DNA from: Geodermatophilus chilensis
GTDB taxonomy: Bacteria > Actinomycetota > Actinomycetes > Mycobacteriales > Geodermatophilaceae
Length of the DNA: 55,459 nt
Direction: 5' to 3'
NCBI RefSeq assembly: GCF_002802985.1
Contig: NZ_NVPT01000011.1
Location: forward strand, 1 to 55,459
Shown: one piece after another, positions 6,042-37,984 of the stretch
How positions within the stretch are numbered: the stretch's first letter is position 1
Layout: every line of letters starts with the position of its first letter
Made by a program: the position numbers and the translations under genes
Notes under the pieces: model-generated
What the model was told of the DNA's origin: nothing
Database searches by the model: none
What the model saw: only the letters and a program-made list of their open reading frames with translations

Positions 6042-6550
6042 TCAGGAGGCGAGCAGCGCGTAGACCAGGCCCACGACCAGCCCGTAGATCACGTGCGCCA
6101 TGACGACTCCAGGCGGAGTGGCGGCCCCATAGTTCTTGGCGAAGGGGCCTGGCGGCTTCAGCTCGACGGCGGGTCCGGACGGGCTTCCGGCGGTCGCCGT
6201 GGCGGTCATGCGCGGATGCATGGCCGGCATCATCGCCATGACCACGCCGGCCATGAGGCCGTGGACGAGCCCGATCAGCGCACCTATCCACCACGCGTTT
6301 CCGGAGCCCACGTCGAACCAGGCGAACAGCAGGGCGTAGATCGAGCCGAAGACGAGGGCGCTCATCACCACGAGGTGCACCATCAGGCCGATTGGGCGGC
6401 CTTGGCGCTGTCACCGGTGAGCATCGTCCCCTGCAGCAGAGCCATGTCCATCTCGGTCTTTCCGGCCTTGCGCATCATGGTCATCATCGCGGTCATGACC
6501 ACGCCGCCCGCGAGGCCGGCGAGCACTGCCGGCCAGAACTCGAAGTCCAT
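6042..6550 (-). pseudogene. Split integral membrane protein (two overlapping ORFs, probable frameshift)
   Basis: A first ORF (ATG 6550 with AGGAGG upstream, ends 6383, 55 codons) begins MDFEFWPAVLAGLAGG and has one membrane helix with several Met residues. It ends at TGA, which overlaps the ATG of a second ORF (6383-6042, 113 codons) as TGATG. The second ORF begins MVHLVVMSALVFGSIYALLF and has three further helices. Reading frame 2 back through the junction gives PIGLMVHLVV, a natural continuation, so one ancestral protein of about 168 residues was probably split by a one-base change near 6390-6400. Alternatively they are two coupled subunits. The second half has a Met/His-rich segment (MAMMPAMHPRM). 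Confidence 0.6.
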
Positions 6551-6580
6551 CGTTCCTCCTCGAATGCGATGTGGCAGCGG

Positions 6581-7036
6581 TCAGCGTGCGGCGCGCGCCT
6601 CGACAAGCTCCTTGAGGTTGTGCAGCGAGTGCTCCAACTCGCGCTCGTTGCGCCGCTCGGCGTAGGCGGAGTCGAACAGCTCCCCGACGAGGCCGCCGGG
6701 CAGTTCGTAGTCCAGCTCGACTGCCACCCGGCTCCCCTCGTCGGCCTGCTCGACGGTCTGCACCATGCGCAGCATCCCGCCGCCGGGCGCTTCCGAGGAG
6801 TACGCCACCCGCTGCGGCCGCTCGAGCTGGGTGACCTCCCAGTTGCTCTCCAGGTTCCGCCCGAGCACGCGCAGCGTCTGGACGAACCGGTCGCCCTGCT
6901 CGATCGGCTTGCGGGGGGTCCCGTGTGTCTCCACAGTGATCGTGGACCAGATGGGCAGCAGGTCGAGGTCGGTGAGCGCCTCGAACACCTGTTCCCGGGA
7001 TACGTCGATCTCGATGCTCTTGTCGATCTTCGCCAT
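6581..7036 (-). CDS. SRPBCC (START/Bet v1-like) superfamily protein
   Basis: A 151-residue protein with the usual opening of polyketide-cyclase-like SRPBCC proteins: IDKSIEIDVSREQVFEALTDLDLLPIW. Later strands (RVAVELDYELPGGLVGELFD) and a long C-terminal helix (ELEHSLHNLKELVEARA) complete the helix-grip fold. Such proteins bind small hydrophobic ligands or act as stress and coat-associated proteins; the ligand here is unknown. ATG 7036 is chosen over GTG 7039 because AGGAGG sits 7 nt upstream. It is 30 bp upstream of the split membrane gene, on the same strand. Confidence 0.8.
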   Translation of the reverse strand: MAKIDKSIEIDVSREQVFEALTDLDLLPIWSTITVETHGTPRKPIEQGDRFVQTLRVLGRNLESNWEVTQLERPQRVAYSSEAPGGGMLRMVQTVEQADEGSRVAVELDYELPGGLVGELFDSAYAERRNERELEHSLHNLKELVEARAAR

Positions 7037-7153
7037 CACGCCACCTCCTGGGGCGCGGCCCCGTCACTCCCAGCGAACGACGGCAACGCGGCCCTCCGTG
7101 TCGGCGTGCCCCTGGTCCGCCCACTGGAACCGGAAATGCACGCTAGGTGACAA

Positions 7154-7861
7154 TCATCGGGGTGGCTCGGGGAGGAGGTCTCCGCCGAGCAGCGCTTGGA
7201 GCCCCGGGACGTCGAGCAACTCGACCTGCCCGTAGCCGCTCTTGATCAGCCCCGTGTTGGTCAGGGTGCGCATGACTCGGCTCACCGACTGCCGCCGCGC
7301 TCCGATCAGGTCGGCGATGACCTCGTGGGTGAGCCGCACGACGACTCTGCTGGACTCCTGCTCCTGCTGCTCCAACAGGACGAACGCCACCTGCGCTTCG
7401 AGCCGGCGAGTCGTCATCACGGCGAGCCGACGGCGGTCGGCATCCAGGCGGCGGGCGATGGACGCCATCCAGCGCAGGCAGAGCGCGGGGAACTGCTGCA
7501 GCAGCTGCATCCACTCCTCGTCGGTTATCTCGATCACCCACGTCCCGCGGGACGCGACGGCGTCGAAGGGCATCGGCGATCCCAGCAACACCGGAATGTC
7601 TGCGACAACGCCGCCTCGGCGCACCAGTGCCATGACCACCCGCCCGCCGCGGGGCAGGCGGGCCAGCAGCTCCAGCTCACCGTCGAGGACCACCAGGACA
7701 CGGTGGGCCTCCTGGCCAGCCGCGGCGACGAGTTGCCCGGCGGGAACCCCGCGCGGGGCACCGGCGCGGCGGAGATGGGCGAGCATCTCCCCTTCGAGGA
7801 GCGTCAGGTCGTGGCGCGCGGACACTCCGCTGATCCAGCGGCCCGGCGGACCAACCGGCAT
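7154..7861 (-). CDS. Crp/Fnr-family transcriptional regulator
   Basis: The protein has 235 residues. An N-terminal cyclic-nucleotide-binding-like beta-roll (about 25-125: GQLVAAAGQEAHRVLVVLDGE) precedes the dimer helix. A winged HTH follows at about 178-200 (THEVIADLIGARRQSVSRVM). The usual Arg-Ser-Ala phosphate cassette for cAMP is not obvious, and no Fnr-type cysteine cluster is seen, so the effector is unknown. ATG 7861 has AGGAGAA 5 nt upstream. It is divergent from the 8096-14636 operon and is the most likely local regulator of that operon and of the minus-strand genes downstream (inference). Confidence 0.85.
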   Translation of the reverse strand: MPVGPPGRWISGVSARHDLTLLEGEMLAHLRRAGAPRGVPAGQLVAAAGQEAHRVLVVLDGELELLARLPRGGRVVMALVRRGGVVADIPVLLGSPMPFDAVASRGTWVIEITDEEWMQLLQQFPALCLRWMASIARRLDADRRRLAVMTTRRLEAQVAFVLLEQQEQESSRVVVRLTHEVIADLIGARRQSVSRVMRTLTNTGLIKSGYGQVELLDVPGLQALLGGDLLPEPPR

Positions 7862-8095
7862 GAGTTCTCCTTACGTCTGCGGCGACCTGATCGTGCACGT
7901 GCCCGCTGGTCGCCGCGCTACGTGCGGGGCAACCTCCGGGAACCGCTGCACATTCAGCGGCGATCGATACCTCGGAACTGTCACCTGGAGTGCAGTCCCC
8001 GTTTCCCTGTAGATGTGTCGAGCACCACCCTCCTGAGCCGGCCGGGCGGACGGGGTCGCCCGGCCCGGTGCCATCTGCTGGATCGAGGAGGGGTG
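7862..8095. promoter_or_regulatory. Divergent intergenic region between the Crp-like regulator and the six-gene operon
   Basis: This 234-bp gap must hold promoters for both directions. It contains an 8-bp palindrome CGTGCACG near 7892-7899 and a weak half-symmetrical ATGTGTCGAGCACC element near 8011-8024, reminiscent of Crp-family sites. Neither is strong enough to call an operator with confidence. Confidence 0.3.
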
Positions 8096-8599
8096 ATGGA
8101 GACGAGGGATCTGGTCACCGATGCTGCGTTGGTCGGAGTCGCCGGATACGGGGCAGCCAAGGTCATGGGCAAGGCGACGACGTTCATGTACGAGCAGCAG
8201 ACCGACGAGGCCAAGCAGGAGGAGAAGGAGGCGAGCTACGGCGTCGCGTACAACGTGGCGGCGAAGAAGACCGCCGCCCTCGTTGGTAAGGAGCTCTCGC
8301 AGGACCAGGCAAGCAGGGCCGGCATGGCGATCCACTACGCACTTGCCCTCGGCTGGGTGCCCGTGTACATGGTCGCCCGACGCCGCTTCGGTATGACGCC
8401 GTTCGGCGCCGGTGCGGCATCGGGTCTGTCCATGGCAGTGCTCGTCGACGAGATCGGCAACCCGCTCCTCGGGTTCACGCCACCACCCCAGAAGTATCCA
8501 CTGGTCAGCCATCTGCGCGGACTGGCCGGACACCTCGTCTACGGATTCGCCGTCGCTGCCATCGTCGAAGCCGGCTGGAAACTGACGGGACGTCGCTGA
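8096..8599 (+). CDS. DUF1440-like membrane protein, first gene of the sugar-acid oxidation operon
   Basis: The 167-residue protein starts at ATG 8096 after GAGGAGGGG. A long frame extends further upstream but only as antisense to the regulator. The N-terminus METRDLVTDAALVGVAGYGAAKVMGK is the usual start of DUF1440/YagU-like proteins, followed by a charged loop (QQTDEAKQEEKEASYG). At least three helices follow (AGMAIHYALALGWVPVYMV, FGAGAASGLSMAVLVDEIGN, LAGHLVYGFAVAAIVEAGW). YagU in E. coli is linked to acid tolerance; a role here is unproven. Its TGA overlaps the next ATG (TGATG). Confidence 0.75.
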   Translation: METRDLVTDAALVGVAGYGAAKVMGKATTFMYEQQTDEAKQEEKEASYGVAYNVAAKKTAALVGKELSQDQASRAGMAIHYALALGWVPVYMVARRRFGMTPFGAGAASGLSMAVLVDEIGNPLLGFTPPPQKYPLVSHLRGLAGHLVYGFAVAAIVEAGWKLTGRR

Positions 8600-9483
8600 T
8601 GTTCATGAAGCCGTCGCAGCGCCGACCGAGACGGGCAACCGAGTTCTCGGGCGGCTGGTCGCCGACGATGCGGCGACTGCGGACCCAGATGGCCGTCATC
8701 ACGACGGCGTCGACGGCGCTGTTGTGGGTCGACAACCTCAGCGAGCACTACCGCGGCGGATTCCAGCGCAAGCTGATGTACGTCCCGGTCGTCGCCAACC
8801 CCGTCGTCGCCGCGGCCGGCGCAGTCACGGCCGTGACGGGCGGCCGACGCGGCGCTCGGCTGTTCGGCCTGCTGTCCGGCGCACAGACACTCATCGCGAC
8901 GGTCGGCTTCATCGAGCACCAGCGGGGCATCCTCAACAGGCCCGGACACCACCAACCCCGACAGCTGCTGTTCAACGCCTGGTACGGCCCCCCGTCCGCG
9001 GCGCCGCTGCAGTACCTCGGCCTCGGATTGATGGGCCTGATGGCCACGGTGCCCCCGTCCGCCGCCGCCCCCGTCCTGGCGCGCATCCCCATCCATCGGC
9101 TGATGCGGGCTTTCAGCGCGCTAAACATCCCGCCGCTGTGGGGCGAGATCGGCTACCTGCACGCCCGTGGCGCCTTCCAGAACCCGGCGCAGTGGCTGCC
9201 CGTCCTCACCCTCCCGGTCGCCGGAGCGATGTCCGCGCTGGCCGCGATATCGGAGGCCGATACCGCACACAAGGCCGCCACGGCCGCATCAGGCTGGACC
9301 GCCCTGCTGGGTGTGCTAGGCACCGGCTTCCACTTGTACGGACTGCACCGGCGCTACGGCGGCTACCGACGCGGCTCCTTCCTGTTCAACTGGCTCAACG
9401 GGCCGCCGGCGCCCGCCCCGCTGCAGATGGTCGGCCTCGGCCTGGCCGGCCTGGCCGCCGAACGGGCGGTGAGCCGAGGATGA
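8599..9483 (+). CDS. Integral membrane protein with an internal duplication
   Basis: This 294-residue polytopic protein has about six or seven hydrophobic segments (near 32-46, 62-80, 86-104, 138-152, 200-218, 230-250 and 277-290). Segments 84-149 and 226-287 repeat: LLFNAWYGPPSAAPLQ and FLFNWLNGPPAPAPLQ occupy equivalent positions, each followed by a Gly/Leu-rich helix (LGLGLMGLMA, VGLGLAGLAA). No named family is recognised. Co-translation with the flavoenzyme genes (TGATG upstream, ATGA downstream) suggests it anchors or passes electrons from the dehydrogenase; no haem or metal motif is clear. Confidence 0.75.
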   Translation: MFMKPSQRRPRRATEFSGGWSPTMRRLRTQMAVITTASTALLWVDNLSEHYRGGFQRKLMYVPVVANPVVAAAGAVTAVTGGRRGARLFGLLSGAQTLIATVGFIEHQRGILNRPGHHQPRQLLFNAWYGPPSAAPLQYLGLGLMGLMATVPPSAAAPVLARIPIHRLMRAFSALNIPPLWGEIGYLHARGAFQNPAQWLPVLTLPVAGAMSALAAISEADTAHKAATAASGWTALLGVLGTGFHLYGLHRRYGGYRRGSFLFNWLNGPPAPAPLQMVGLGLAGLAAERAVSRG

Positions 9484-10151
9484 AGCCGTCTCCGTACCCA
9501 GGCTTCGATCCGATGCGCGAGTCGGAGGCGTGGGAGGACCGCGACCGTGCCCTCGTGCTGTCCCGCCTCCACGACATCCCGGCGCTGCGCTTCTTCTCGC
9601 CGGAGGAGGCGCAACTGCTGGACGCCGTCGTCGACCGTCTCATCCCGCAGCCCGACCGTGCCCCTGACGACCGGGTCGTCGTCACGCCGTTCCTCGATCA
9701 GATGCTTTTCGACGACGACACCGACGGATTCCGCAAGGACGGCATGCCGTGGGACCAGGAGGTGTGGCGGCAGGCACTGATCGGCATCGACCAGACGAGT
9801 AACGCCCGCTACGGACGGCGGTTCGTCGAGCTGGACGCCACGCAGCAGGACGACGTCCTCTCAGCGTTCCAGAGCGGCGAGGCCGAGGGAGCGGTATGGC
9901 GGCACCTGCCGTCGGCCGCGGTGTTCACGAAGGTGATCGAGCAAGTGGTGTCCGTCTACTACGCGCACCCCTCGGCGTGGGCGGAGATCGGTTGGCCCGG
10001 TCCCGCCAGCCGGCGCGGCTACATGCGCACCGGATACGGCCAGCTCGACCCGTGGCGGCCCCGCGAGATCGGATCGGCGTCCTCGGTCCAGCTGGTGGAG
10101 ATCAGCGAGAGCGTCGGGGGCCCCTCCGGCTCGGTAGGGGGCACGCATTGA
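9480..10151 (+). CDS. Gluconate 2-dehydrogenase subunit 3 family protein
   Basis: The protein has 223 residues. ALRFFSPEEAQLLDAVVDRLIPQPD (about 35-60) is the hallmark of the Gluconate_2-dh3 family, followed by the FLDQMLFDDDTDG region and a C-terminal YYAHPSAWAEIGWPGPASRRGY segment. Classical small subunits (about 200 residues) carry a Tat signal and help export and fold the flavin subunit. No signal peptide is seen here, so this complex may remain inside the cell. ATG overlaps the previous stop (ATGA). The next gene encodes the GMC flavin subunit, supporting the assignment. Confidence 0.88.
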   Translation: MKPSPYPGFDPMRESEAWEDRDRALVLSRLHDIPALRFFSPEEAQLLDAVVDRLIPQPDRAPDDRVVVTPFLDQMLFDDDTDGFRKDGMPWDQEVWRQALIGIDQTSNARYGRRFVELDATQQDDVLSAFQSGEAEGAVWRHLPSAAVFTKVIEQVVSVYYAHPSAWAEIGWPGPASRRGYMRTGYGQLDPWRPREIGSASSVQLVEISESVGGPSGSVGGTH

Positions 10152-11722
10152 CCAGCCATGACGAGGTCGACGCGGTCGTCGTCGGCGTCGGAGCCGCCGG
10201 TGCCGTCCTGGTGCGCAAGCTCGCCGACGCCGGCTGGCGCGTCGTCGGCCTGGACGCCGGGCCGCACTGGGACCCGCAGACGGACTTCCTGTCCGACGAA
10301 CGCGCCATGTCCAAGCTGTTCTGGCGCGACCGCCGAGTCACCGGTGGGGACGATCCCATCGAGCTCGCAGGCAACGTCACCGGCAAGGGCGTCGGTGGCA
10401 GCACCGTGCACTACTCCATGTACGCGCTCCGGCTGCACCGGTCGGACTTCGAGACCCGGACCCGTGACGGCGTCGGCTCGGACTGGCCGCTGAGCTACGA
10501 GGACCTGGAGCCCTACTACGACGAGGTGGAGCGCGAACTCGGCATCGCCGGCCCCGTCGACTGGCCCTGGGACGCGCCCCGCCGCCACCGCTACCCCTAC
10601 CGCCCGCACCAGCTCAACGGGGTGGGCGAGGTTATGGCGCGGGGATGCGACGCCCTGGGCATCACCTGGCGTCCGGGCGCCATTGCGACGCTGTCCGCAC
10701 CGAAGGGCGACCGTCCGCCGTGCGTCTACCGCGGCTGGTGCCTGTCGGGCTGCACCACGAACGCCAAGTCCAGCACGCTGGTCACCTACGCGGAGGAGGC
10801 CGTGCACGCCGGCGCCGACATCCGCCCGCACTGCATGGTGCACCGCGTCGACACCGACGCGACCGGCCGCGCCATCGGGGTCACCTACTTCCGGCGCTCC
10901 GCGGACGGCACCGTGCACGAGGAGCGGCAGCGCGCCCGCGTCGTCATCGTCAGCGCCTACTCGATCGAGACACCGCGCCTGCTGCTCATGTCGGCGTCTT
11001 CCCGATACCCGGACGGGCTGGCCAACAGCAGCGGCCTGGTCGGGAAGGGACTGATGATCCACGGCTCCGACATCGTCTTCGGACGGTTCCCGGAGCCGGT
11101 CTCCCAGTTCAAGGCACCGCCCCCCAACACGATCACCCAGGACTTCTACGAGACGGACGCCGCCAACGACTTCGTCCGCGGCTACAGCATCGAGACCGTC
11201 GGGCCGCTGCCCGGCAAGTTCGCGCAGCTGGCGGCGTCGACCCTGGGCCTGTGGGGGGAGTCGCTGCGCGAGTTCATGTACGACTACAGCCACTACGCCG
11301 GGCTGGGACTGGTCGGTGAGACGCAGGCACAGGACGGCAACGGCGTACGGCTGTCGCCGGACGAGACCGACACCTTCGGGTTGCCCATCCCGGTCGTCAC
11401 TTTCTCCTACGCCGACGACGACAGACGCCTTCTGGACGCCGGCGCCGACACGCAGCGCCGGATCCTGGAGGCGGCCGGTGCGGAGGTCACGTTCCGGGTC
11501 AGCGACACCGCGCACCTCATGGGCGCATGCCGGATGGGGAACGACCCGGTGACCTCGGTCGTCGACCGGAACTGCCGGGCCTGGGACGTCCGAGGCCTCT
11601 ACATCTGCGACGGCAGCGTCTTCGTCACCTCCGGCGCCGCCAACCCCAGCCTGACCATCCAGGCCATTGCCGCCCGTACGGCCGACCAGCTGATCGCCGC
11701 CGGCCGGCGTCACGAGCTGTAG
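10148..11722 (+). CDS. GMC-family FAD oxidoreductase (gluconate/sugar-acid dehydrogenase-like large subunit)
   Basis: A TTG start (10148) overlapping the previous TGA gives 524 residues. The FAD-binding GxGxxG is at 13-18 (GVGAAG), followed by LDAGPHWDP. GNVTGKGVGGSTVHYSMYAL is the GMC signature. The conserved C-terminal catalytic pair is present: His near 455 (DTAHLMGACRMG) and Asn near 499 (NPSLTIQAIA). A Cys-rich stretch GWCLSGCTTNAKSS (about 195-208) matches the gluconate-2-dehydrogenase flavin-subunit group. It oxidises a hydroxyl of a sugar or sugar acid with electrons passed via FAD. There is no cytochrome c subunit in the operon, so the electron acceptor is unclear. The stop codon is TAG. 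Confidence 0.87.
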   Translation: MTSHDEVDAVVVGVGAAGAVLVRKLADAGWRVVGLDAGPHWDPQTDFLSDERAMSKLFWRDRRVTGGDDPIELAGNVTGKGVGGSTVHYSMYALRLHRSDFETRTRDGVGSDWPLSYEDLEPYYDEVERELGIAGPVDWPWDAPRRHRYPYRPHQLNGVGEVMARGCDALGITWRPGAIATLSAPKGDRPPCVYRGWCLSGCTTNAKSSTLVTYAEEAVHAGADIRPHCMVHRVDTDATGRAIGVTYFRRSADGTVHEERQRARVVIVSAYSIETPRLLLMSASSRYPDGLANSSGLVGKGLMIHGSDIVFGRFPEPVSQFKAPPPNTITQDFYETDAANDFVRGYSIETVGPLPGKFAQLAASTLGLWGESLREFMYDYSHYAGLGLVGETQAQDGNGVRLSPDETDTFGLPIPVVTFSYADDDRRLLDAGADTQRRILEAAGAEVTFRVSDTAHLMGACRMGNDPVTSVVDRNCRAWDVRGLYICDGSVFVTSGAANPSLTIQAIAARTADQLIAAGRRHEL

Positions 11723-14636: not shown

Positions 14637-15297
14637 CTCGCGGGACGTCGCCGCTGTCCGCACTGGGCGAGCGATGTGCTGCCGGTTGGGGGGCACCCAA
14701 CCACACGGGCGCCCGGCGGGGGTCGAGCCGCCCATGAGACCCGTCATGGCCAACGACACCGAGGGGGCGATCGTCGCCGGCTACGGATCGCTGTCGGACT
14801 GCGCCTCCGCCGGTGTGGTCGTTACCAGCGGCTGGGCGGACCGGGGGTGCCTATCCGGCGCCAGCCGCGGTTATAGGACGGTCCATCGAGGCGCGCCCCG
14901 GTGGCCGGCACGTCGATGGCTGGCGGCGCCGCGCCACCATGGTCCCGCACCGTCACCTCGCCCGTTGGGCACGCGAGTCGTCGTGGTCCGCTCCCGCCCG
15001 GAGGCATGCCCCCCAGGCTCCGGGGGACCAGCCAGGTCGCCCTAAGTCAGCCGAGTTGGTTGGTGATCTCGATCGCGCCCTTGAGGCTCCGTGCGACCGG
15101 GCACCCGTCCGCGGGCAAGGGAGCCGGTCAGATCGAGCGATCATCCGAGACACCGACCTGGAGCAGGGATGCAGCCGGCCCGGCTCGGCACGCTCAACGT
15201 GGACGCCCGGGGGCGAGGGAAGTGGGGATGGAAGTCATGGGCCGTCTCGGCGGGTTCCCTGCATCAGACCGCCGACACGCAGGATCTCGGAGGGGCG
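14637..15297. other. 661-bp non-coding stretch with gene remnants
   Basis: No intact gene is seen. A plus-strand segment near 14745-14820 translates to NDTEGAIVAGYGSLSD, weakly like the start of a universal stress protein, but it degenerates at once. A clear OsmC C-terminal remnant lies at 15047-15124 on the minus strand. The stretch looks like a graveyard between two cargo operons. Confidence 0.4.
15047..15124 (-). pseudogene. Remnant of an OsmC/Ohr-type peroxiredoxin C-terminus
   Basis: On the minus strand this segment reads PADGCPVARSLKGAIEITNQL and then TGA. That matches the end of OsmC-family hydroperoxide reductases, including the GCPVS-type cysteine motif. The frame loses similarity above about 15124 and no start or N-terminal domain is present. 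It is therefore a fragment, probably left by deletion. Confidence 0.5.
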
Positions 15298-16272
15298 ATG
15301 GTGGACCGACCTGACGCGACGACGGCCCGGGTCGAGGTGCTCTGGCGGCCGGGCTGCCCCTACTGCTCCCTACTCCATGCCGGCCTGCGGCGGGCCGGCA
15401 TCAGCACCCGTGAGCACAACATTTGGGCCGATCCTGCGGCGGCAGAGCGGGTTCGTGCCGCCACGGGCGGCGACGAGACCGTCCCGACCGTCGTCGTCGG
15501 CAGCCGGACGTTGGTAAATCCCTCCGTGGCAGCCGTCGTGGCCGCCGTCCGCGCGGAGTTCCCGGATGAGGCCGAGGATCTCGTGGGGGTGGCTCCGGAA
15601 GTGCCGCGGTTCCCCTCGGCGGTGTGGAGCCCGGCGTTGTGGACGCTCGCCGGGGGGCTGGTGTGGGTGGCGCTGGCGGCGTGGCGGCCGACGACCACGT
15701 GGCATCTCGGCCCGGCGCTGCTCGCCGCGGCCGCGCCGTGGGTTGTCGCGCAGGACCTGCGCGCCGGCGACCGGCGCGCTCTGCCCCGCCTCGCGGCTGC
15801 TGCCGTCGCAGGACTGCTCGTCTCCCTCCTGGTCGGCGGGGGGTTGGCGGCGACCGGACTCCTGCGGGGGCCGACGCTGCCCGGCTTCGCCGATCCGCTC
15901 CCCGAATCGGTGGTCTTCGCCACGGCAGGGGCCGTTCTCGCCGCACTCGTCGGCGCGCGCAGGGCGCTGCGAAGGCCGCCAGCGACACGGTCCGCATGGG
16001 TCGGTGAGCACATGCTGGCCCGCTCCGACGACGTCGTGATGGTGGAGGGCAATGCCTACTTCCCGGCGTCCGCTGTCCGGCCGGGAGCGCTGGTCCCGAC
16101 GTCTACGCGGACGGTCTGTCCCTGGAAGGGGATCGCCCGGTACTACACGGTGACCCTCGGCGGGACCGAGCTCCGCGACGCGGCCTGGTCCTATCCCCAT
16201 CCGCTACCGCTGGCGCGGCGGGTGAAGGGCCGTATCGCCTTCTGGGGTGGTGTTGAGAGCCGGACGGAGTAG
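15298..16272 (+). CDS. Three-part fusion: glutaredoxin domain, membrane helices, DUF427 domain
   Basis: The protein has 324 residues from ATG 15298 (AGGGG upstream). Residues 8-85 are a glutaredoxin/mycoredoxin domain with Cys20-Pro-Tyr-Cys23 and TVPTVVVGSRTLVNPS. Residues about 108-225 hold four hydrophobic segments (WTLAGGLVWVALAAW, LGPALLAAAAPWVVA, AAAVAGLLVSLLVGGGLAATG, VVFATAGAVLAALVG). Residues about 245-320 are a DUF427 domain (MVEGNAYFPASAV, CPWKGIARYYTV, DAAWSYPHPLP). Each part is known alone; I do not recall this combination. Both soluble ends should face the cytosol if the helix number is even. The stop is TAG. Function unknown; likely a membrane-tethered redox protein. Confidence 0.85.
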   Translation: MVDRPDATTARVEVLWRPGCPYCSLLHAGLRRAGISTREHNIWADPAAAERVRAATGGDETVPTVVVGSRTLVNPSVAAVVAAVRAEFPDEAEDLVGVAPEVPRFPSAVWSPALWTLAGGLVWVALAAWRPTTTWHLGPALLAAAAPWVVAQDLRAGDRRALPRLAAAAVAGLLVSLLVGGGLAATGLLRGPTLPGFADPLPESVVFATAGAVLAALVGARRALRRPPATRSAWVGEHMLARSDDVVMVEGNAYFPASAVRPGALVPTSTRTVCPWKGIARYYTVTLGGTELRDAAWSYPHPLPLARRVKGRIAFWGGVESRTE

Positions 16273-16427
16273 GAAACCGGGACGTCGCCCCCTGCGACAC
16301 GGGTCAGCATTGCCGCCGGGGGCCTGCGCCCCGGTCGATCAACGACGGGAACCGAGCAGCGATGGACGGCCCGCGTGACACCGCACGTGGTCCGGCGCAT
16401 CGACCTACACCTCCAGGAGGACCTTCG

Positions 16428-17777
16428 ATGGCTGAGCAGTTCGACGTGATCGTGATCGGCATGGGGCCCGGCGGGGAGGTCGCCGCCAGCCGGCTGCTGA
16501 AGGCCGGGAAGCGGGTCGCCGTCGTCGAGCGGGAACTGATCGGCGGAGAGTGCGCCTACTGGGGATGCATCCCCTCCAAGACGCTGCTGCGTCCACCGGA
16601 GGCGCGTGGCGGGGTTGAGCGGGCGGCTGGCGTCGGCGGCGCGGAACTCGACTGGGCGGACACCTGCGACTACCGCGACTACATGATCCGCCACCTCGAT
16701 GACACCGCTCAGGTGGCCGGTTACGAGAAGCAGGGCGCCACTGTGGTCAAAGGTGCGGCGCGCCTCACCGGCCCGGGAACCGTGGACGTCGAGGGACGGG
16801 AGCTGTCGGCCGAGCACGTCGTCGTGGCGACTGGTTCCGAGCCGGTGCTGCCGCCGATCGACGGCGTCGAGGAGGTGGGGGCGTGGACCAACCGGGAGGC
16901 GACGACGCTGCGGGAGATCCCCCGGCGTGTGCTCATGCTGGGGGGAAGTGCGGTCGGGATCGAGCTCGGTCAGTTCCTGCGGCGCTACGGGGCGGACGTC
17001 ACCATCGTGGAGGTGGCGCCCCGGCTGCTCGGGCGTGAGGACCCACGCCTGGGCGAGCTTGTCGGTGACCACCTGGCCCGCGATGGCGTGCACGTGCACA
17101 CCGCCGTCACTCCGAAGCGGGTCCGCCGCGCCGGCCAGGAGACGGTGCTCGAGCTCGAGGACGGCGCGGAGCTACGCGGCGACGTCCTTATCGCCGGCAC
17201 CGGACGTCGACCGCGTACAGAGGGTCTCGGTCTGGAGGCCGCCGGGGTGGAGCTCGGCGCGAAGGGCGCCGTTCCGGTCGACGAGCACTGTCGCGCTGCA
17301 GAGGGGCTGTGGGCGATCGGAGACGTCACCGGCACGATGCAGTTCACCCACGTCGCCATGTACCAGGCGCGGATCGTCGCCGACACCATCCTCGGGAAGC
17401 CTCGCCGTGCTCGCTATGACGGCATCCCGCGGGTGATCTTCTCCGATCCCGAGGTCGCCGCGGTGGGGCTGACCACCGAGGAAGCCGGGCAGCAAGGTCT
17501 ACCCGTTGTCTCCGCCGAGATCGACCTGTCGCACACGATCGCCCGGCCCTGGACGTACGAGCGAGAGCCCCGGGGCTACCTCGGGCTGCTGGCCGACCCT
17601 GAGCGGCGGGTCCTGCTCGGCGCATGGGCGATCGCACCACAGGCCAGCGAATGGATCCACCAAGCGGCGCTGGCCGTGCGCGAGCAGATCCCGGTCGACC
17701 GGCTGCTCGACCAGGTCGCCCAGTTCCCCACGTACACGGAGGGCTACCTCAAGGCCATGGAGGAGCTGGAACTGTGA
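16428..17777 (+). CDS. Lipoamide-dehydrogenase/mercuric-reductase-like flavoprotein disulfide reductase
   Basis: The 449-residue protein has an FAD motif GMGPGGEVAA (11-20), active-site disulfide Cys42/Cys47 within GGECAYWGCIPSKTLL, an NAD(P) motif (MLGGSAVGIELGQFLRRYG), a second FAD motif (WAIGDVTG) and a dimerisation domain from about 335. The C-terminal catalytic dyad is changed: where lipoamide dehydrogenase has HPT..E this protein has QFPTYTEGY, so the proton-relay His is missing while Glu remains. It is thus a class-I relative with an unknown disulfide or quinone substrate. ATG 16428 has AGGAGG at 16415-16420. It follows the glutaredoxin fusion by 155 bp on the same strand, suggesting a redox partnership. 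Confidence 0.85.
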   Translation: MAEQFDVIVIGMGPGGEVAASRLLKAGKRVAVVERELIGGECAYWGCIPSKTLLRPPEARGGVERAAGVGGAELDWADTCDYRDYMIRHLDDTAQVAGYEKQGATVVKGAARLTGPGTVDVEGRELSAEHVVVATGSEPVLPPIDGVEEVGAWTNREATTLREIPRRVLMLGGSAVGIELGQFLRRYGADVTIVEVAPRLLGREDPRLGELVGDHLARDGVHVHTAVTPKRVRRAGQETVLELEDGAELRGDVLIAGTGRRPRTEGLGLEAAGVELGAKGAVPVDEHCRAAEGLWAIGDVTGTMQFTHVAMYQARIVADTILGKPRRARYDGIPRVIFSDPEVAAVGLTTEEAGQQGLPVVSAEIDLSHTIARPWTYEREPRGYLGLLADPERRVLLGAWAIAPQASEWIHQAALAVREQIPVDRLLDQVAQFPTYTEGYLKAMEELEL

Positions 17778-22239: not shown

Positions 22240-23205
22240 TCAGGACCGGCGGCTGATCCCGAGCAGGTCTTCCACGAACCGGAGTCGCTCGGGGACGGGG
22301 CATCCGGTCGCGTCCAGGATGAGGTTCATCATCTGGAAGTTCGCACAGACCCCGACCGCCGCCGCCGCCACCTCGCGGCTCGCCGAATGCACCAGGGCGT
22401 CGCGCGCCACGTCGAGGCGCCGCCCCGTCGCCATGGCGGTGGCGAGGTCGCGGAGCTGCTCGCCCCAGGGCAGTCCGGGCTCGATGCTCTCGTCCGCGAT
22501 CGCCCGAAGGTCGGCCGAACCACCCGTCGTCTTCTCCACGCTCACCCGGAGCATGTTGGCGTGGGCGATCAGCTAGTAGAAGCAGTTGTTCAGGAGTGAC
22601 ACCCTGGCGGCCAGCAGTTCCATCTGCGCGCGGGACAGCAGGCCCTGGTAGGTGAGGTCGCCCATCTGCTCCATGCTCAGGTAGAGCTGCGCGTGCAGCC
22701 GGTCGCGATCGTCCTCCTCCGCCGGCACCGCCGAGAGTGCGTAACGCGCGCCGTCCTCCGGATGGGTTGGCACGAAGGCCTGGCGCAGCCGCACGTCGGG
22801 GTTCCGGCTGCGGGTCGGTTCCCCCGCGACGGGCTGGGGCAGCGGCTCCTCTGCCGAGCCGATGCCCCGGACGTAGGCGTCGATCGCCGCCAGTCGGCTG
22901 ACGATGCCCACCACCTCCACGAACCGCTCGACCGTGAGGCCGCGCGCGAGAAGGTCGCTGACCCACTCCCGCGTGATGAGGTCCGCGGCGGCGGAGACCG
23001 ACTGCGCTGCCTCGGTCAGCAGCGGGTCGAGTCCGGTGTACGCGTCGGCGAACGTGCGGGCGGCCCGGGCCTCCCTGGCCACGGAGACCCGCTCCTCGCC
23101 GGAGAGCCAGGTGCCCGGCATGGCCAGCCGCTGCCATTGGGAACGGAGTTCCTCGCGAAGGCCATCCGGCACCGGCAGAACAGCGCCGTCCAAGACGAAG
23201 GCCAC
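22240..23205 (-). CDS. AhpD/carboxymuconolactone-decarboxylase-like protein with in-frame TAG at the active-site cysteine (candidate UAG selenoprotein)
   Basis: Read through the TAG at 22573-22575, the protein has 321 residues from GTG 23205 (AGGAG 9 nt upstream). The C-terminal half holds the AhpD-like core: ELLAARVSLLNNCFY-stop-LIAHANMLRVS. The family signature CxxCxxxH is matched as Cys208-Phe-Tyr-[TAG211]-Leu-Ile-Ala-His215, so the stop replaces the second catalytic Cys. The frame and family-like sequence continue for 110 codons (ALVHSASREVAAAAVGVCAN) to TGA 22242. A second AhpD-like half (about 30-130) lies N-terminal. It is the last gene of a minus-strand thiol-redox operon, 134 bp after the DUF3179 gene. 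Selenocysteine insertion is inference; a nonsense mutation is the alternative. Confidence 0.7.
22537..22555 (-). promoter_or_regulatory. Candidate bacterial SECIS-like hairpin downstream of the TAG
   Basis: In the mRNA the seven bases CAUGCUC (22555-22549) pair with GAGCGUG (22543-22537), with one U-G wobble, around the loop CGGGU. The loop begins 24 nt after the UAG. Bacterial SECIS elements lie directly downstream of the codon and expose a loop with conserved G and U at about this distance. The structure is inside coding sequence and in GC-rich DNA, so chance pairing is possible. A competing CCACGC/GCGUGG stem also exists. Confidence 0.45.
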
Positions 23206-23339: not shown

Positions 23340-24545
23340 TCAGCCGAGGTCGGCGATCCGGGTCGTCGGATGGAAGGCCGCCCAGGCGAACCAGAAGGTG
23401 TCCAGGTGCTCGACCGGTTCGAGTCGCTTCCCAGCCATCGGTCCGTCGACGGCCTCGCCCAAGACGTTCCATCGGGAGCCGGTCGCGTCGTCGATGAACC
23501 GCTCCCCCTGCCGGGTGAAGGCCAGCCGCTGTCCGTCCACGACCGGGTCGAAGGCACCGGTGGCGCCGACCGGCCGACCCTCATCGACCCGGCGATCGTC
23601 CAGGGGTGAGCGCAGGCCCTCGACGGCCCACACGACGACCGGTGCGCCGTCGACGGTCAGCTCGACCACACCCGTCTCGACCAGATCGACCAGCGGCACC
23701 GCGACCGGATCCCCGGACGCACCGAGCCCGGCCACCCGCTCCATGGCGGGCCGCCGCGGGTCGGGCTCACCCTGGAAGAGGAACGGGTTGCCGCCGGGCC
23801 GGTCGTAGCCGCCGTAGGGGTTGGCGCCGTAGTCACGCCTCGCTCCGGTGTCCCGGCTGAGCACCCACCCGTCGGGGTTGGCCTCCCGCCACTGCGCCCA
23901 CGTCACGGTCTGCACCGGCACCCGGTCCAGCTCCTGCCCGGCGAGCACTCCTGCGATCGCCCGGCCCTCGATCTGCGAGAACAGGGACTCGGTCTGCCGG
24001 TCGTACATCACCAGGTCGGAGCGGTACAGCAGCCCGGAGGTGCCGAAGGTGAGCAGCCGGTCGCCCAGCTGCCGGTCGAAGGCCAGTGCCGAGTTGCACA
24101 ACGGGCAGTAGGTCACGGCGACAGGACGGCCGTCGATCGTGTCGTTGACGATCTCGTGCCAGATCAGGATCCGCACCGGGTAGGCACGCGCGGTCTCCCC
24201 GATGGCGGGGGCCAGCACGGGTTCGTCGTCGGTCAGCCAATCGACCTCGGCCGCGCGCTGGAAGCGAGGTTCCTCGATCGGTGGGATGCCGTCCGGCGGC
24301 GGACCGCCGCTGATCACCTCGTCCGGGTCGACCAGCGGCGCGGGCAGGGCGGGGTCGTCGATGCGCTCCAGCGCCGAGGGGAGGTCCTCGCTCGGCGACC
24401 CGTCGACCTCCTCCAGCAGCACCGAGTCACCCGTGGTGGGACCGGCCCCGGTGCTGTCGACACCGGTGCGCTCCGCCGTCGGGCCGCCGCAGGCACCGAG
24501 CAGCAGAAGAGCCGCCACGCCCAGCGCCGCACGTCGGGCGCTCAT
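23340..24545 (-). CDS. DUF3179 domain lipoprotein
   Basis: The protein has 401 residues. The signal peptide ends in a lipobox LLGAC (Cys19), so it is probably anchored outside the membrane. Residues about 100-395 form the DUF3179 domain: AYPVRILIWHEIVNDTIDG and PVAVTYCPLCNSALAFDR (Cys147, Cys150), later SLFSQIEGRAIAG and GANPYGGYDRPG. The function of DUF3179 is unknown; the CPLC pair suggests redox or metal chemistry. Its ATG overlaps the stop of the CcdA-like gene (ATGA), and a TlpA thioredoxin gene precedes that, so a role in extracytoplasmic thiol chemistry is likely. Confidence 0.85.
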   Translation of the reverse strand: MSARRAALGVAALLLLGACGGPTAERTGVDSTGAGPTTGDSVLLEEVDGSPSEDLPSALERIDDPALPAPLVDPDEVISGGPPPDGIPPIEEPRFQRAAEVDWLTDDEPVLAPAIGETARAYPVRILIWHEIVNDTIDGRPVAVTYCPLCNSALAFDRQLGDRLLTFGTSGLLYRSDLVMYDRQTESLFSQIEGRAIAGVLAGQELDRVPVQTVTWAQWREANPDGWVLSRDTGARRDYGANPYGGYDRPGGNPFLFQGEPDPRRPAMERVAGLGASGDPVAVPLVDLVETGVVELTVDGAPVVVWAVEGLRSPLDDRRVDEGRPVGATGAFDPVVDGQRLAFTRQGERFIDDATGSRWNVLGEAVDGPMAGKRLEPVEHLDTFWFAWAAFHPTTRIADLG

Positions 24546-25396
24546 CGCTGCCGCTCCCGCGCCCGACGACGGCCGGGGCGTATCGCACCGGCGACCCCGA
24601 CTGCGGCGATCAGCCCGATCGCGACGAGCCCGCCCGGACCCAGGGCCGCGACCCAGCGCGTGAGCGCTCCTTGCACAGAGCTGGCCGCCTCGATGACCGG
24701 GTCGCCGCTCGCCGCGCCGGCGAGCACCCGGATCTCGAACCAGCCGTACCAGGCCACGTAGCCGCCGGCGACGAGCAGGAGCGCGCCGCTGCCGCGGCTG
24801 ATCAGCGCGCCGGCGCGGCGCAGCGAACCGACGATCGAGGTGCGCGCGAGCGCGACGGCGACCGACAGCACCGTGACGATCGTCCCCATGCCGAGGGCGT
24901 AGACCAGGAAGGTGGCGGCGACCTCGACGGGTCCGCCGGTCCGCAGTGCCCCCGCGGTCACGGCGAGGAAGGGCGCCAGCGTGCACGACAGCGACGCCAG
25001 CGCGAACGAGACGCCGAACCCGACCTGCGACGCCCACCGCGCGGTGGGCGCCTGCCCGTGGCCGGCCATGCCCGATAGCCCCAGGCGCCGACCGGTCAGC
25101 AGCCACAGCCCGACGCCGACCAGGACCGCACCGATGAGCACGGTCAGCACCGGCAGGTACCGCTGGACCGACGCCGTCACCGACCCCAGCGCGAGACCGG
25201 CGAGCCCGAAGACGACGACGAAGCCGGTGGTCATGCCGAGGGCGAAGCCGACCGCGCGTGCCACTGCCGCTCTCCTGGCGGACCGGGCGTCGGCGACGAT
25301 CAGGCCCAGGTAGGCCGGCAGCAGGGCGAAGCCGCACGGGTTGAACGCCGCGACCGCTCCGGCGACGAGGGCCAGCCCGAACACTCCCACGTCCAT
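24542..25396 (-). CDS. CcdA/DsbD-type transmembrane thiol-electron transporter
   Basis: The 284-residue polytopic protein begins with FNPCGFALLPAYL (Cys21), and the matching second cysteine motif is ASLSCTLAPFL (Cys138). These two membrane cysteines are the redox pair of CcdA proteins, which move electrons from cytosolic thioredoxin to extracytoplasmic thioredoxin-like partners. Six hydrophobic segments fit the family core (about 220 residues); a further C-terminal helix (ALGPGGLVAIGLIAAVGVAGA) and basic tail are extra. It lies between the TlpA-like and DUF3179 lipoprotein genes, its probable partners. Confidence 0.85.
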   Translation of the reverse strand: MDVGVFGLALVAGAVAAFNPCGFALLPAYLGLIVADARSARRAAVARAVGFALGMTTGFVVVFGLAGLALGSVTASVQRYLPVLTVLIGAVLVGVGLWLLTGRRLGLSGMAGHGQAPTARWASQVGFGVSFALASLSCTLAPFLAVTAGALRTGGPVEVAATFLVYALGMGTIVTVLSVAVALARTSIVGSLRRAGALISRGSGALLLVAGGYVAWYGWFEIRVLAGAASGDPVIEAASSVQGALTRWVAALGPGGLVAIGLIAAVGVAGAIRPGRRRARERQR

Positions 25397-25403
25397 CGCG
25401 GCC

Positions 25404-26003
25404 TCACAGCAGGTCTTCGACGAAGGCGTCGAGCTGTCCGCCGGCGAGCGACCCGGCGAAGGACTCGGTGGTTCCCGCCGCGTCCACGAAGACGAACGTC
25501 GGCTGTGAGACGACGCCGAAGCGGTTCCACACCGCGCCGTCCTCGTCGACCAGATGCACCAGAGAGCCCGTACCGGTGTCCGCGACGAAGGACCGCATCG
25601 ACGCCAGGTCACCGCGACCGGCCACGCCGATCACCTCGACCCGCCCGGCGTACTCGGCGGCGACCTCGGCGACGTCCGGGGCCTCGGCGCGGCAGATGGT
25701 GCACCACGGCGCCCAGAACCACAGCACCACCGGGCGGCCGGCCAGCCGGCTCGAGTCGAAGCTGCCCCCGTCGAGGGTGGAACCGCGCAGGTTCAGGGCC
25801 GCGGTCCCACCCCCCGACGGCTCGGCGGCCGGGACGCTCGACGCGGCAGGGGGAGCCCCGGCAGTCGTGTCACCGAGTCCGGCGGAGGGAGCACACGCGG
25901 TCAACGCCAGCGCTGCCGCGGCCGACGCCGCCCACCAGGACGCCGCCCCCCGCGACAGGGTGCTTCGGGCGGCCGTCCGGCCGGGCCCTCCCTCACCGTC
26001 CAT
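25404..26003 (-). CDS. TlpA-like thioredoxin-fold lipoprotein
   Basis: The protein has 199 residues. A signal sequence with lipobox ALTAC (Cys37) is followed by a Ser/Pro/Ala-rich linker and a thioredoxin domain from about 70. The active site is Trp-Cys101-Thr-Ile-Cys104, in WFWAPWCTICRAEAPDV; the cis-Pro region is VVSQPTFVFVD. Such proteins reduce or oxidise disulfides outside the membrane. It stops 7 bp before the CcdA-like start, and its start overlaps the preceding glutaredoxin-like gene, so the three are co-translated. Confidence 0.85.
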   Translation of the reverse strand: MDGEGGPGRTAARSTLSRGAASWWAASAAAALALTACAPSAGLGDTTAGAPPAASSVPAAEPSGGGTAALNLRGSTLDGGSFDSSRLAGRPVVLWFWAPWCTICRAEAPDVAEVAAEYAGRVEVIGVAGRGDLASMRSFVADTGTGSLVHLVDEDGAVWNRFGVVSQPTFVFVDAAGTTESFAGSLAGGQLDAFVEDLL

Positions 26004-26343
26004 GGCGCGTCCCCTCCGGCTCCGGGTCGGTCTCCTCCTCCTCGTCCCAGCCCGCGAGCAGGTCCTCGGGCGAGGGGTTGCCCAGCCAGCGGACCCGGCC
26101 GCGGAGCACGTACGTCGGCGTGCCGACGAGGCTGGCCGGCCGCGCGCCGGGATGCAGACGGTCCAGGTCGACCAGTTCGACCGCCGCGCCGGGCCGCAGC
26201 CGGCGCAGCTCGCTGACCAGCTCCCCGGCCCGCCGGCAGCTCGTGCACGCTGCGCTGACGTAGACCTGCAGCCGCGACGCCCGGGACGGCGTCGGCGGGA
26301 CGTGGCGGCCCGCAGCTCGCCGGACCTCCTCGGACGCCGCCAC
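25993..26343 (-). CDS. Small thioredoxin/glutaredoxin-fold protein
   Basis: About 116 residues from GTG 26343; the frame is open further upstream but there it overlaps another gene antisense-like. Residues 25-95 show the fold: LQVYVSAACTSCRRAGELV (Cys33, Cys36), AVELVDLDRLHPG, VGTPTYVLRGRVRWLGNPS with the cis-Pro. The C-terminus is very acidic (WDEEEETDPEPEG). It is probably cytosolic and could feed the CcdA-like carrier. It overlaps tlpA by 11 bp and follows the membrane gene at 26352 by 8 bp. Confidence 0.7.
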   Translation of the reverse strand: MAASEEVRRAAGRHVPPTPSRASRLQVYVSAACTSCRRAGELVSELRRLRPGAAVELVDLDRLHPGARPASLVGTPTYVLRGRVRWLGNPSPEDLLAGWDEEEETDPEPEGTRHGR

Positions 26344-26351
26344 GGTCGACG

Positions 26352-26816
26352 TTAGGCCGACCGCCGCCGCAGCAGCGCCCACGCCACCACGCCGAGGACC
26401 AGGCCGAAGATCACGTGACCGAGCAAGCTCATCAAGGCCATCTGGTTGACGACGAACACCGGCATCCCCATGAAGGCGGGCATCAGCAGCAGCGGGCCGA
26501 TCACCCAGAGGACCACCCCGTACACCGCGCCGAGCAGCAGCGCCTTGCCGGCACCCCGGAGCAGACCGCCCAGCAGCACGGTGAACGCGGCACCGAAGAG
26601 GGCGGAGATCGCCAGGTGGACGACCCATCCCACTGCCACCGACGTGCTGCCCACGAGCTGGGCGACCATGCCGATCATCCCCATGACCTGCATCATCATG
26701 CCGAACACCAGGCCGCCGGCCAGGCCGCCGGCCACCCCCGCGGTCAGTCGTTGGACGAGCCCCGCGCGCCCGGCGCCCGTCGTCGTCCCGGCTGCTGCAT
26801 GCGTCGTCGTGCGCAT
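26352..26816 (-). CDS. Small four-helix membrane protein (DUF6789-like)
   Basis: The protein has 154 residues from ATG 26816 with AGGAGGA upstream. After a short polar N-terminus come Gly- and Met-rich helices: GVAGGLAGGLVFGMMMQVMGMIG, WVVHLAISALFGAAFTVLLGGLL, ALLLGAVYGVVLWVIGPLLLMP and LGHVIFGLVLGVVAWALL. It resembles the two frameshifted genes at 2303 and 6042 and ends in TAA. First gene of the redox operon, divergent from the regulator at 27001. Function unknown. Confidence 0.75.
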   Translation of the reverse strand: MRTTTHAAAGTTTGAGRAGLVQRLTAGVAGGLAGGLVFGMMMQVMGMIGMVAQLVGSTSVAVGWVVHLAISALFGAAFTVLLGGLLRGAGKALLLGAVYGVVLWVIGPLLLMPAFMGMPVFVVNQMALMSLLGHVIFGLVLGVVAWALLRRRSA

Positions 26817-26890
26817 CGTGGTCCTCCTCTTTCCTGGCGGGCGGGTCGCCCGCTGCGCCGGACGCTAGGGCGGAGCAGCGTCGCCCGTCT

Positions 26891-26906
26891 GTGTGCCAGA
26901 GCACAC
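26891..26906. promoter_or_regulatory. Candidate Crp-family operator
   Basis: Perfect inverted repeat GTGTGC-CAGA-GCACAC, which also reads TGTG-N6-CACA, close to the Crp/Fnr half-site spacing. It sits in the 184-bp gap between the divergent redox operon (start 26816) and the Crp/Fnr regulator (start 27001), so it probably serves autoregulation and control of the operon. Confidence 0.6.
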
Positions 26907-27000
26907 TTCGGGCACCCGCCCTGTGCCACGCTGGGCCGGCGAGCGCCGGGGCCGGCGCCCGGCATCGCCCGGACAGCGGTGACAGGAGGGGGATCGGATT

Positions 27001-27774
27001 GTGACGGCCGACGCCGGCAGCGGGTCCACGCCGTCCTCCACGGTCCCGGTCTTCTGCCTGTCCGAGGTCGAGGTCTTCCAGGACCTCAGCCAGCAGGAGA
27101 TGGCTGATCTCGCCGCGCGTGCTCCGATGCGGACGGCTGCGGCGGGAACCGTGCTCTGGTCGCCCCACGAGCCGCACCGGGTGCTGTTCATCGTCAAGGC
27201 CGGATCGGTGCGGATCTACCAAATCTCACCGGAGGGAAGGCGTGTGACGTTGGCCGTGCTCGGCCCCGGAGCGCTGTTCGGCGAGATGGAACTCATCGGC
27301 CAGCACATGGGGGAGGGGTTCGCTGAGGCTTTGGAGCCGAGCGTGCTGTGCCTGATGAGCGAACACGACGTCCGCACGATGCTGCTGTCCGACACCCGCA
27401 TCGCGACCCGCATCATCACCGGGCTGGGCCGACGCCTCGCCGAGGTCGAGCAACGGCTCGCCGACACCGTCCTGAAGACCGCGCCCCAGCGGGTGGCCGC
27501 CGTCCTCTGCCGGCTGGCCACTGCGGCCCCGGAGTCCGGCCTCTTCGCGCCGCGGGGCTCTCACATCCGGCTCACGCACGAGCAATTGGCCGAACTGGTG
27601 GGCACCACCCGGGAGACAGCAACGAAGCTCCTGGGTGAGCTACGGGGGGCCGGTCTCGTCACGCTCCGCCGGGGCGGAATCGTCGTCCTGGACCTGGATG
27701 GACTGCGGGCCGTCGCCGAGCACTCTGATCTCGGGCTCGGGTCTCCTCAACGGCCGGCTCGGGCAGGGGAGTGA
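27001..27774 (+). CDS. Crp/Fnr-family transcriptional regulator
   Basis: The 257-residue protein starts with GTG (GGAGGGGG upstream). It has an N-terminal cNMP-like beta-roll (about 20-135: VEVFQDLSQQEMADLAARAP, GPGALFGEMELIG), the dimer helix (RRLAEVEQRLADTVLK), and a winged HTH at about 191-214 (LTHEQLAELVGTTRETATKLL). The single Cys residues do not form an Fnr iron-sulfur cluster. The ligand is unknown; redox or nucleotide are both possible. It is divergent from the thiol-redox operon with a palindromic site between them. Confidence 0.87.
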   Translation: MTADAGSGSTPSSTVPVFCLSEVEVFQDLSQQEMADLAARAPMRTAAAGTVLWSPHEPHRVLFIVKAGSVRIYQISPEGRRVTLAVLGPGALFGEMELIGQHMGEGFAEALEPSVLCLMSEHDVRTMLLSDTRIATRIITGLGRRLAEVEQRLADTVLKTAPQRVAAVLCRLATAAPESGLFAPRGSHIRLTHEQLAELVGTTRETATKLLGELRGAGLVTLRRGGIVVLDLDGLRAVAEHSDLGLGSPQRPARAGE

Positions 27775-37179: not shown

Positions 37180-37984
37180 ATGGAGCAGGACGACGCGGTG
37201 GCCGTGGCGGGCATGGGACGGGCGTTCGCCGGAGCACTGCTGTTCTCCATGCCGCTGTTCATGACCATGGAGCTGTGGCGCCTCGGCCTGGCGGTGGACC
37301 GCTACCGGCTCGCCCTGCTGCTGCTCAGTACCGTGCTCCTGGTCGTGGGTCTGGCCCGCGAGCTCGGTGGGGCGTCGGAGCAGCCGGGATGGCGGGGCTG
37401 CCTGGTCGACTCCGGGGTGGCCTTCGTCATGGCCGCGCTGGCCGCCACCGTCGTCCTGACCGTCCTCGGCGCCGTCTCCTGGTAGCAGGACTGGCGGGAC
37501 GCGCTGTCAGTCGTGGCGCTGGAGACGCTGCCGGCGGCGGTGGGTGCCTCGTACGCGCGCAGCCAGCTGGGCCAGACGAGTCCCCAGCCGCAGCGTGGGG
37601 GCTACGGGCACGAGGTGTTCCTCATGGCCGCCGGCGCGGTCGTCTTCGCCGCCAACGTGGCGCCGACCGAGGAGATCGTCCTCCTGGCCGCCGAGGCGAC
37701 CCCCTGGCACGGGCTGGCCCTCGTGGCGCTCAGCCTCCTGCTCATGCACACCTTCGTCTACCGGGTCGGGTTCAGGGGGCAGGAGCAGGCGCACCACGGC
37801 CCGCTGCACAGCCTTCGCCAGCCTGACCGTCGTCGGCTACGCGCTCGCCGTCGCCGTCGCCGCGTACCTGTTGTGGACGCTGGGCCGATTCGACCAGGCG
37901 GGCTGGACCACGCTGGTCATGGAATCGGTGGTCCTCGCACTGCCGGCGTCCCTCGGCGCCGCAGCCGCCTGGCTGATCCTGTGA
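37180..37984 (+). pseudogene. TIGR02587-family membrane protein, broken by an in-frame TAG and a frameshift
   Basis: The first 101 codons (ATG 37180) give two or three helices (AFAGALLFSMPLFMTMELW, LALLLLSTVLLVVGLA, VAFVMAALAATVVLTVLG). A TAG at 37483-37485 interrupts the frame, which then continues in phase as QDWRDALSVVALETLPAAVG, YARSQLG and GHEVFLMAAGAVVFAANVAP. Near 37790-37810 the sense shifts to another frame (FASLTVVGYALAVAVAAYLL, SVVLALPASLGAAAAWLIL) ending at TGA 37984. This adds to one TIGR02587 putative integral membrane protein of about 268 residues. Two lesions argue for a pseudogene or poor sequence rather than recoding. The TIGR02588 partner follows. Confidence 0.72.

Follow-up and report, generated by a model that had tools for sequence, protein, structure and literature searches.

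The analysed window is a stretch of 55,459 nucleotides (nt) from Geodermatophilus chilensis (contig NZ_NVPT01000011.1, positions 1 to 55,459 of the forward strand), and the gene under study is an AhpD-related gene of the NF041238 protein family on its minus strand (22240..23205). The frame opens with GTG (23205-23203) and ends with a TGA stop (22242-22240). It has 321 sense codons, and its single in-frame TAG is codon 211 (22573..22575, minus strand), for which selenocysteine (Sec) is the inferred residue. The initial annotation had described a single TAG in an otherwise coherent 321-codon gene, placed at the second Cys of a CxxCxxxH signature. The frame and the codon were found as described, the motif reads C208-F-Y-TAG-L-I-A-H215, and homologues have TGA or Cys at the site.

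The read-through protein was compared with AhpD-type families, as had been recommended. It matched the NCBIfam model NF041238, 'alkylhydroperoxidase-related (seleno)protein' (AhpD_rel_CFYUT), with 227.8 bits (cut-off 175), and a Pfam CMD match (residues 182-220, 27.4 bits, cut-off 23) spans the TAG. The C-x-x-U/C motif of NF041238 is present at the CMD core, with the TAG aligned to the TGA or Cys of homologues, and the protein was found to match the helical fold of AhpD, in which the motif sits where a helix begins. In an alignment of 18 sequences, residue 211 is U or C throughout (18/18). Equally invariant (18/18 each) are Cys208 (codon 22582..22584), the partner of residue 211 in CxxU; Glu196 (22618..22620), 12 residues N-terminal of Cys208; and His215 of CxxUxxxH (22561..22563), all encoded on the minus strand. 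The resulting pattern, EX11CX2(U/C)X3H, is the AhpD signature, the spacing of Glu196 included.

UAG also serves as a plain stop in the window, as had been pointed out: the open reading frames (ORFs) at 9896-11722 and 15091-16272 end in TAG, and their Pfam domains extend nearly to the ends (to residue 592 of 608 and 385 of 393, respectively). The selB gene of the same genome has TAG as its own stop codon. The window was scanned heuristically for more in-frame TAG codons, which gave 35 rows. A second-position guanine-plus-cytosine (GC) fraction of at most 0.53 on both sides was confined to two of them, 22573 and the ORF end at 37483; the other rows resembled frames in the wrong register and were rejected as candidates.

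The window genome (G000) is a draft of 374 contigs with a completeness of 99.98%. It was searched for selA, selB, selD, and a tRNA-Sec with a CUA anticodon, the check put forward in the initial annotation, and all were present on a single contig (C345). The tRNA-Sec (9909-10000) scored 65.1 bits with the covariance model (gathering threshold 47) and has the anticodon CUA. It is accompanied by selA (7914-9224, 415.5 bits), selB (6148-7923, 281.6 bits), and selD (within the ORF 10024-11031, 385.9 bits), all above the NCBIfam equivalog cut-offs. A formate dehydrogenase gene on contig C235 has one in-frame TAG at the Sec site (QARI-U-HSATVPGL), followed by the hairpin GGUGCCC-GGUCU-GGGUGCC, whose 44-nt fold was no better than shuffled sequences (z 0.05). 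Molybdopterin oxidoreductase genes were searched for in 16 Geodermatophilaceae genomes: the seven with a CUA tRNA-Sec have nine genes with exactly one TAG (inspected at the residue level for the window genome), none with a TAG was found in the other nine, and three of those nine (G070, G071, and G074) gave a one-TGA match, seen at the match level.

Relatives were sampled as 112 genomes of the family Geodermatophilaceae. The NF041238 gene scored above the cut-off in six of them, spread over three genera and including Modestobacter sp. DSM 44400, Modestobacter caceresii, and Blastococcus sp. DSM 46786. All six carriers have one TAG each, at codon 211, a frame that ends in TGA after 319-321 amino acids (aa), and a CUA tRNA-Sec; the five other proteins share 70-74% identity with that of the window. 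Frameshifts or a plain stop in sister strains had been named as a point to check, and the relatives in two other genera keep the TAG, with frames that stay open as far as the same end point. The ratio of nonsynonymous to synonymous substitution rates (dN/dS, Nei-Gojobori), calculated for the 15 pairs of the six TAG genes, was 0.175-0.300 upstream and 0.210-0.347 downstream of the TAG; the downstream part is thus kept as protein, and the region 3' of the TAG is, judged by these substitution ratios, under purifying selection. A weak match with TGA in G021 was rejected, being an ordinary NNCDYC protein with no TGA at a CxxU site.

In the same sample, tRNA-Sec genes (E value 1e-10 or better) were detected in 108 of the 112 genomes. 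The 110 genes comprise 102 with CUA and eight with UCA anticodons, and 101 genomes have a CUA tRNA-Sec, counting one (G019) that has one of each kind. In seven genomes of the genera g5, g6, and g7 (G066, G068, G069, G070, G072, G073, and G074), UCA is the only tRNA-Sec anticodon; the switch to CUA thus either arose within Geodermatophilaceae or was reversed in those genera.

Outside Geodermatophilaceae, 15 homologous genes from 14 genomes (L166; L167 and L169, two copies in G584; L168; and 11 loci of metagenome-assembled genomes, L173-L183) all have TGA at the site (15/15), and a UCA tRNA-Sec was found in 11 of the 14 genomes. Codon and anticodon match wherever both were seen. A further locus, L165 (G419), scored 77 bits, under the NF041238 cut-off, and was counted apart; it has TGA and a UCA tRNA-Sec. 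The database homologue P0043, the eighteenth sequence of the alignment, has Cys at the site. TGA in the outside homologues and Cys in P0043 agree with the exchange of Cys and Sec at this position that the initial annotation had described. The Cys displayed by P0055 is doubtful, as this protein is named a (seleno)protein and U was possibly printed as C; P0043 is therefore the only Cys homologue counted.

A hairpin resembling a selenocysteine insertion sequence (SECIS), CAUGCUC-CGGGU-GAGCGUG, lies at 22537..22555 on the minus strand. It starts 17 nt after the TAG and its CGGGU loop includes GGU, in agreement with the hairpin with GGU in the loop that had been noticed near the codon. In 21 aligned UAG and UGA sequences, stem columns 21-27 pair with columns 33-39 around a 5-nt loop with G at loop position 2, and the distance from the codon is fixed and common to the UAG and UGA versions. 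Pairing was seen in 87.1% of the cells, compared with 25-49% when the partner was slid by 1 to 3 bases, and was matched by 0 of 500 shuffles, a control weakened by the relatedness of the sequences. The Leu codon in the stem is CTC in 20/20 sequences, compared with a CTC share of 26-69% for Leu in the rest of these genes, and the Ser codon is AGY in 19/19, compared with 19-61% elsewhere in those genes (L183 has Asn at the Ser position, and L169 was left out of the count). The corresponding frequency products are 10^-7.6 and 10^-7.9, with relatedness ignored. Codon choice in the stem is a stronger sign for the hairpin than the pairing statistics.

The frame, the UAG, the tRNA, selA, selB, and selD are present as described, and both the UAG and the downstream frame are conserved in six genomes of three genera. 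As far as sequence comparison can tell, the UAG at codon 211 of this NF041238-family gene is very probably read as Sec by the CUA tRNA-Sec of the genome. In the proposed mechanism, the CUA tRNA would be charged with serine, which SelA would then convert using selenophosphate from SelD. SelB would carry Sec-tRNA-Sec(CUA) and recognise the hairpin that starts 17 nt downstream of the codon; this binding would set the UAG apart from ordinary UAG stops. Because UAG also serves as a stop here (as at the end of selB), release factor 1 would compete with Sec insertion. For the product we predict an AhpD-like enzyme of the CxxU type, either a peroxidase or a thiol-redox enzyme, that would reduce peroxides or act in thiol exchange, with Sec211 replacing the second Cys and Cys208 as its predicted partner. 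Glu196 and His215 presumably form a proton relay, a role that, like that of Cys208 as partner, we carry over from AhpD. Without Sec insertion, a 210-aa fragment with an incomplete active site would be made.

Such a fragment is central to the first rival explanation, ordinary termination, by which the 210-aa protein would be functional and the downstream frame either vestigial or a small gene of its own. UAG is indeed a stop elsewhere in the genome, and database annotation follows the same pattern. A search of 5.8 billion proteins, in which 7991 candidates were scored, found 192 matches. Among the 120 of these that were listed, 114 end immediately before the codon (99 identified by script and 15 by eye), two show Cys (P0043 and, with doubt, P0055), and four are other fragments. 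The named matches from Modestobacter and Blastococcus saxobsidens are annotated as a 'hypothetical protein' of 210 aa; P0006, the Blastococcus saxobsidens record of the gene, bears this label. However, the dN/dS of 0.21-0.35 downstream is the same as upstream, CxxU/C-xxx-H is invariant across the stop, the CMD domain spans the TAG, and the TAG itself is retained in 6/6 genomes, which makes plain termination very unlikely. There is similarly little room for UAG being read as another residue, either pyrrolysine or a canonical amino acid inserted by a suppressor or near-cognate tRNA. ARAGORN does label the CUA tRNA on C345 as tRNA-Pyl, but the relatives pair TGA with a UCA tRNA-Sec, and pyrrolysine in particular was rejected because the CUA tRNA fits the tRNA-Sec covariance model and neighbours the sel genes, although PylRS was not searched for. 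An error of sequencing or assembly might be suspected at this codon in a draft of 374 contigs, but the same TAG occurs in six different genomes, three of them re-encountered as Modestobacter or Blastococcus isolates, and the probability of such an error is negligible.

Several observations weigh against the reading of UAG as Sec or against the hairpin assigned to it. In the 21 aligned sequences only two pairs are changed on both sides, a number reached by 391 of 500 shuffles, and RNAalifold retains five pairs, none of them changed on both sides. The 41-nt fold of the window sequence does not surpass shuffled sequences (z -0.37) and prefers another structure; only the isolated 27-nt segment folds as proposed (z -2.34). 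The five 41-nt folds gave z values of -0.37, -2.93, +0.74, -2.21, and -0.54, and only those of L072 and L173 stood out. Single-sequence folding was dropped as evidence for the hairpin, as the folds of L072 and L173 are structures other than the proposed one. No tRNA-Sec was found in three of the 14 outside genomes with TGA (G817, G819, and G823; 1.6 to 2.1 Mb). The gene scored above the cut-off in just one of the 26 genomes of the window's genus. Finally, all TAG carriers belong to one bacterial family, and the codon and the anticodon may share a single switch.

UAG-encoded Sec in Geodermatophilaceae was reportedly described in 2016 by Mukai and colleagues for a formate dehydrogenase and a UGSC protein. 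The reference to such work in the initial annotation agrees with passages of PMC5330540, which cites the 2016 paper. In those passages, three Geodermatophilaceae genomes with a CUA tRNA-Sec are reported, the earlier formate dehydrogenase and UGSC proteins are cited, and a UAG-Sec AhpC of Blastococcus saxobsidens DD2 is added. The gene in the window resembles these known genes in the CUA tRNA-Sec, the UAG at the Sec site, the hairpin after the codon, and the bacterial family, but NF041238 differs as a protein family from the formate dehydrogenase, UGSC protein, and AhpC covered there. NF041238 itself is described, in passages of PMC13188914 and PMC1088965, as a CxxU selenoprotein family with a UGA codon, first seen as 'hypothetical protein 1' in the Sargasso Sea. 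The protein family, the CxxU motif, and the place of the hairpin are the same here as in the fetched UGA members, whereas the codon, published as UGA in those papers, is UAG. No literature report of a UAG-encoded NF041238 member was recognised in a search that mostly did not extend to subscription papers and is weak evidence of novelty. Passages of PMC9312934, PMC10778597, and PMC7609411 contain nothing on this family with UAG.

Among the proteins of known structure listed in the comparison, the AhpD and peroxidase-related CMD proteins (PDB 1gu9, 2pfx, and 6k40) have Cys at the UAG site, and the window protein differs from them by an additional N-terminal half. Identity to Sestrin2 (PDB 5t0n) is 13%, with no sequence match to it. 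The active site lies in the C-terminal half of the window protein and in the N-terminal half of Sestrin2.

Upstream of the AhpD-like gene and on the same strand, the window contains DUF3179, DsbD-like, and TlpA-like redoxin genes (23340-27222, minus strand); the DsbD-like membrane protein scored 22.4 bits, under the cut-off of 27.1. DUF3179 also precedes the AhpD-like gene in G034 (L073). Judging from the gene order, a redox role common to the AhpD-like gene and these upstream genes is possible. Elsewhere in the window (15091-17777, plus strand) there is a gene for a glutaredoxin/DUF427 fusion, with Cys at the site and matches under the cut-offs to the mycoredoxin and Uxx-star models, together with a disulphide reductase gene. 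Disulphide reductase genes are likewise found near the AhpD-like gene on L171.

The latter locus, from Modestobacter caceresii, also contains a deiodinase-like gene (L171:5563-6408, minus strand) approximately 0.6 kb past the AhpD-like gene. Its in-frame TAG at 6178-6180 (GSVT-U-PMT) precedes a strong hairpin tipped by GGUCC, and the gene matches PF00837 with 48.5 bits (cut-off 27) and NF038285 with 75.1 bits, under the cut-off of 250. In Blastococcus sp. DSM 46786, the deiodinase-like TAG (L172, 8269-8271, minus strand) and the hairpin are retained; no matching 5' part of the gene was seen in the 302 bases that remain up to the end of the contig. From these features, the deiodinase-like gene is a candidate for a further UAG-Sec family.

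The congener G019 has a CUA tRNA-Sec (C11:15836-15927) as well as a molybdopterin oxidoreductase gene that contains a single TAG. A second tRNA-Sec in this genome, with a UCA anticodon (81.8 bits; L156, contig C17 of G019, 1173-1263), lies 0.3 kb from an AhpD-like gene (1579-2157) that matches TIGR01926 with 112.6 bits (cut-off 81.8) and reads CFY-TGA. The hairpin of the TGA gene, ACGCAG-AGUUU-CUGCGU, gave z -3.34 for the isolated 23 nt, whereas the fold of 43 nt (z -0.11) did not differ notably from shuffles. The GC content of this stretch is 59-65%, compared with 69-81% in the other sampled parts of the contig (40 kb plus the first kb). Contig C17 has segments up to 92% identical to congeners, which speaks against contamination. 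The UGA protein had no match in phages; in plasmids it matched 333 records, all with less than 60% identity, and of the 20 plasmid rows shown, 18 carry an annotation as peroxidase-related enzyme and two carry none. No vehicle was found in the phage and plasmid comparisons, and Pfam queries with four ORFs of the stretch gave no match.

If both tRNAs of G019 work, Sec is assigned to both of the stop codons UAG and UGA in a single genome. One proposal, on which we are evenly divided, is that Sec coding is movable in Geodermatophilaceae: the codon would have changed from UGA to UAG across most of the family (in the AhpD-like, deiodinase-like, and formate dehydrogenase genes), and G019 would later have gained an island with a UCA tRNA-Sec and a UGA AhpD-like gene, thus using both codons, perhaps with one SelA/SelB set. 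The apparent use of two Sec codons in G019 is a more novel lead than the AhpD-like UAG gene.

Current annotation mostly truncates the AhpD-like enzymes at 210 aa and thereby hides them. Together, the homologous UAG, UGA, and Cys genes form a natural set for comparing SelB, the hairpin, and the competition with release factors. UAG-encoded Sec is known in Geodermatophilaceae, and NF041238 would likely be one more protein family that uses it. The Sec codon and the tRNA anticodon change together, whereas neither the protein nor the position of the hairpin is altered, which indicates that the switch extended to parts of the selenoproteome other than formate dehydrogenase, the UGSC protein, and AhpC.
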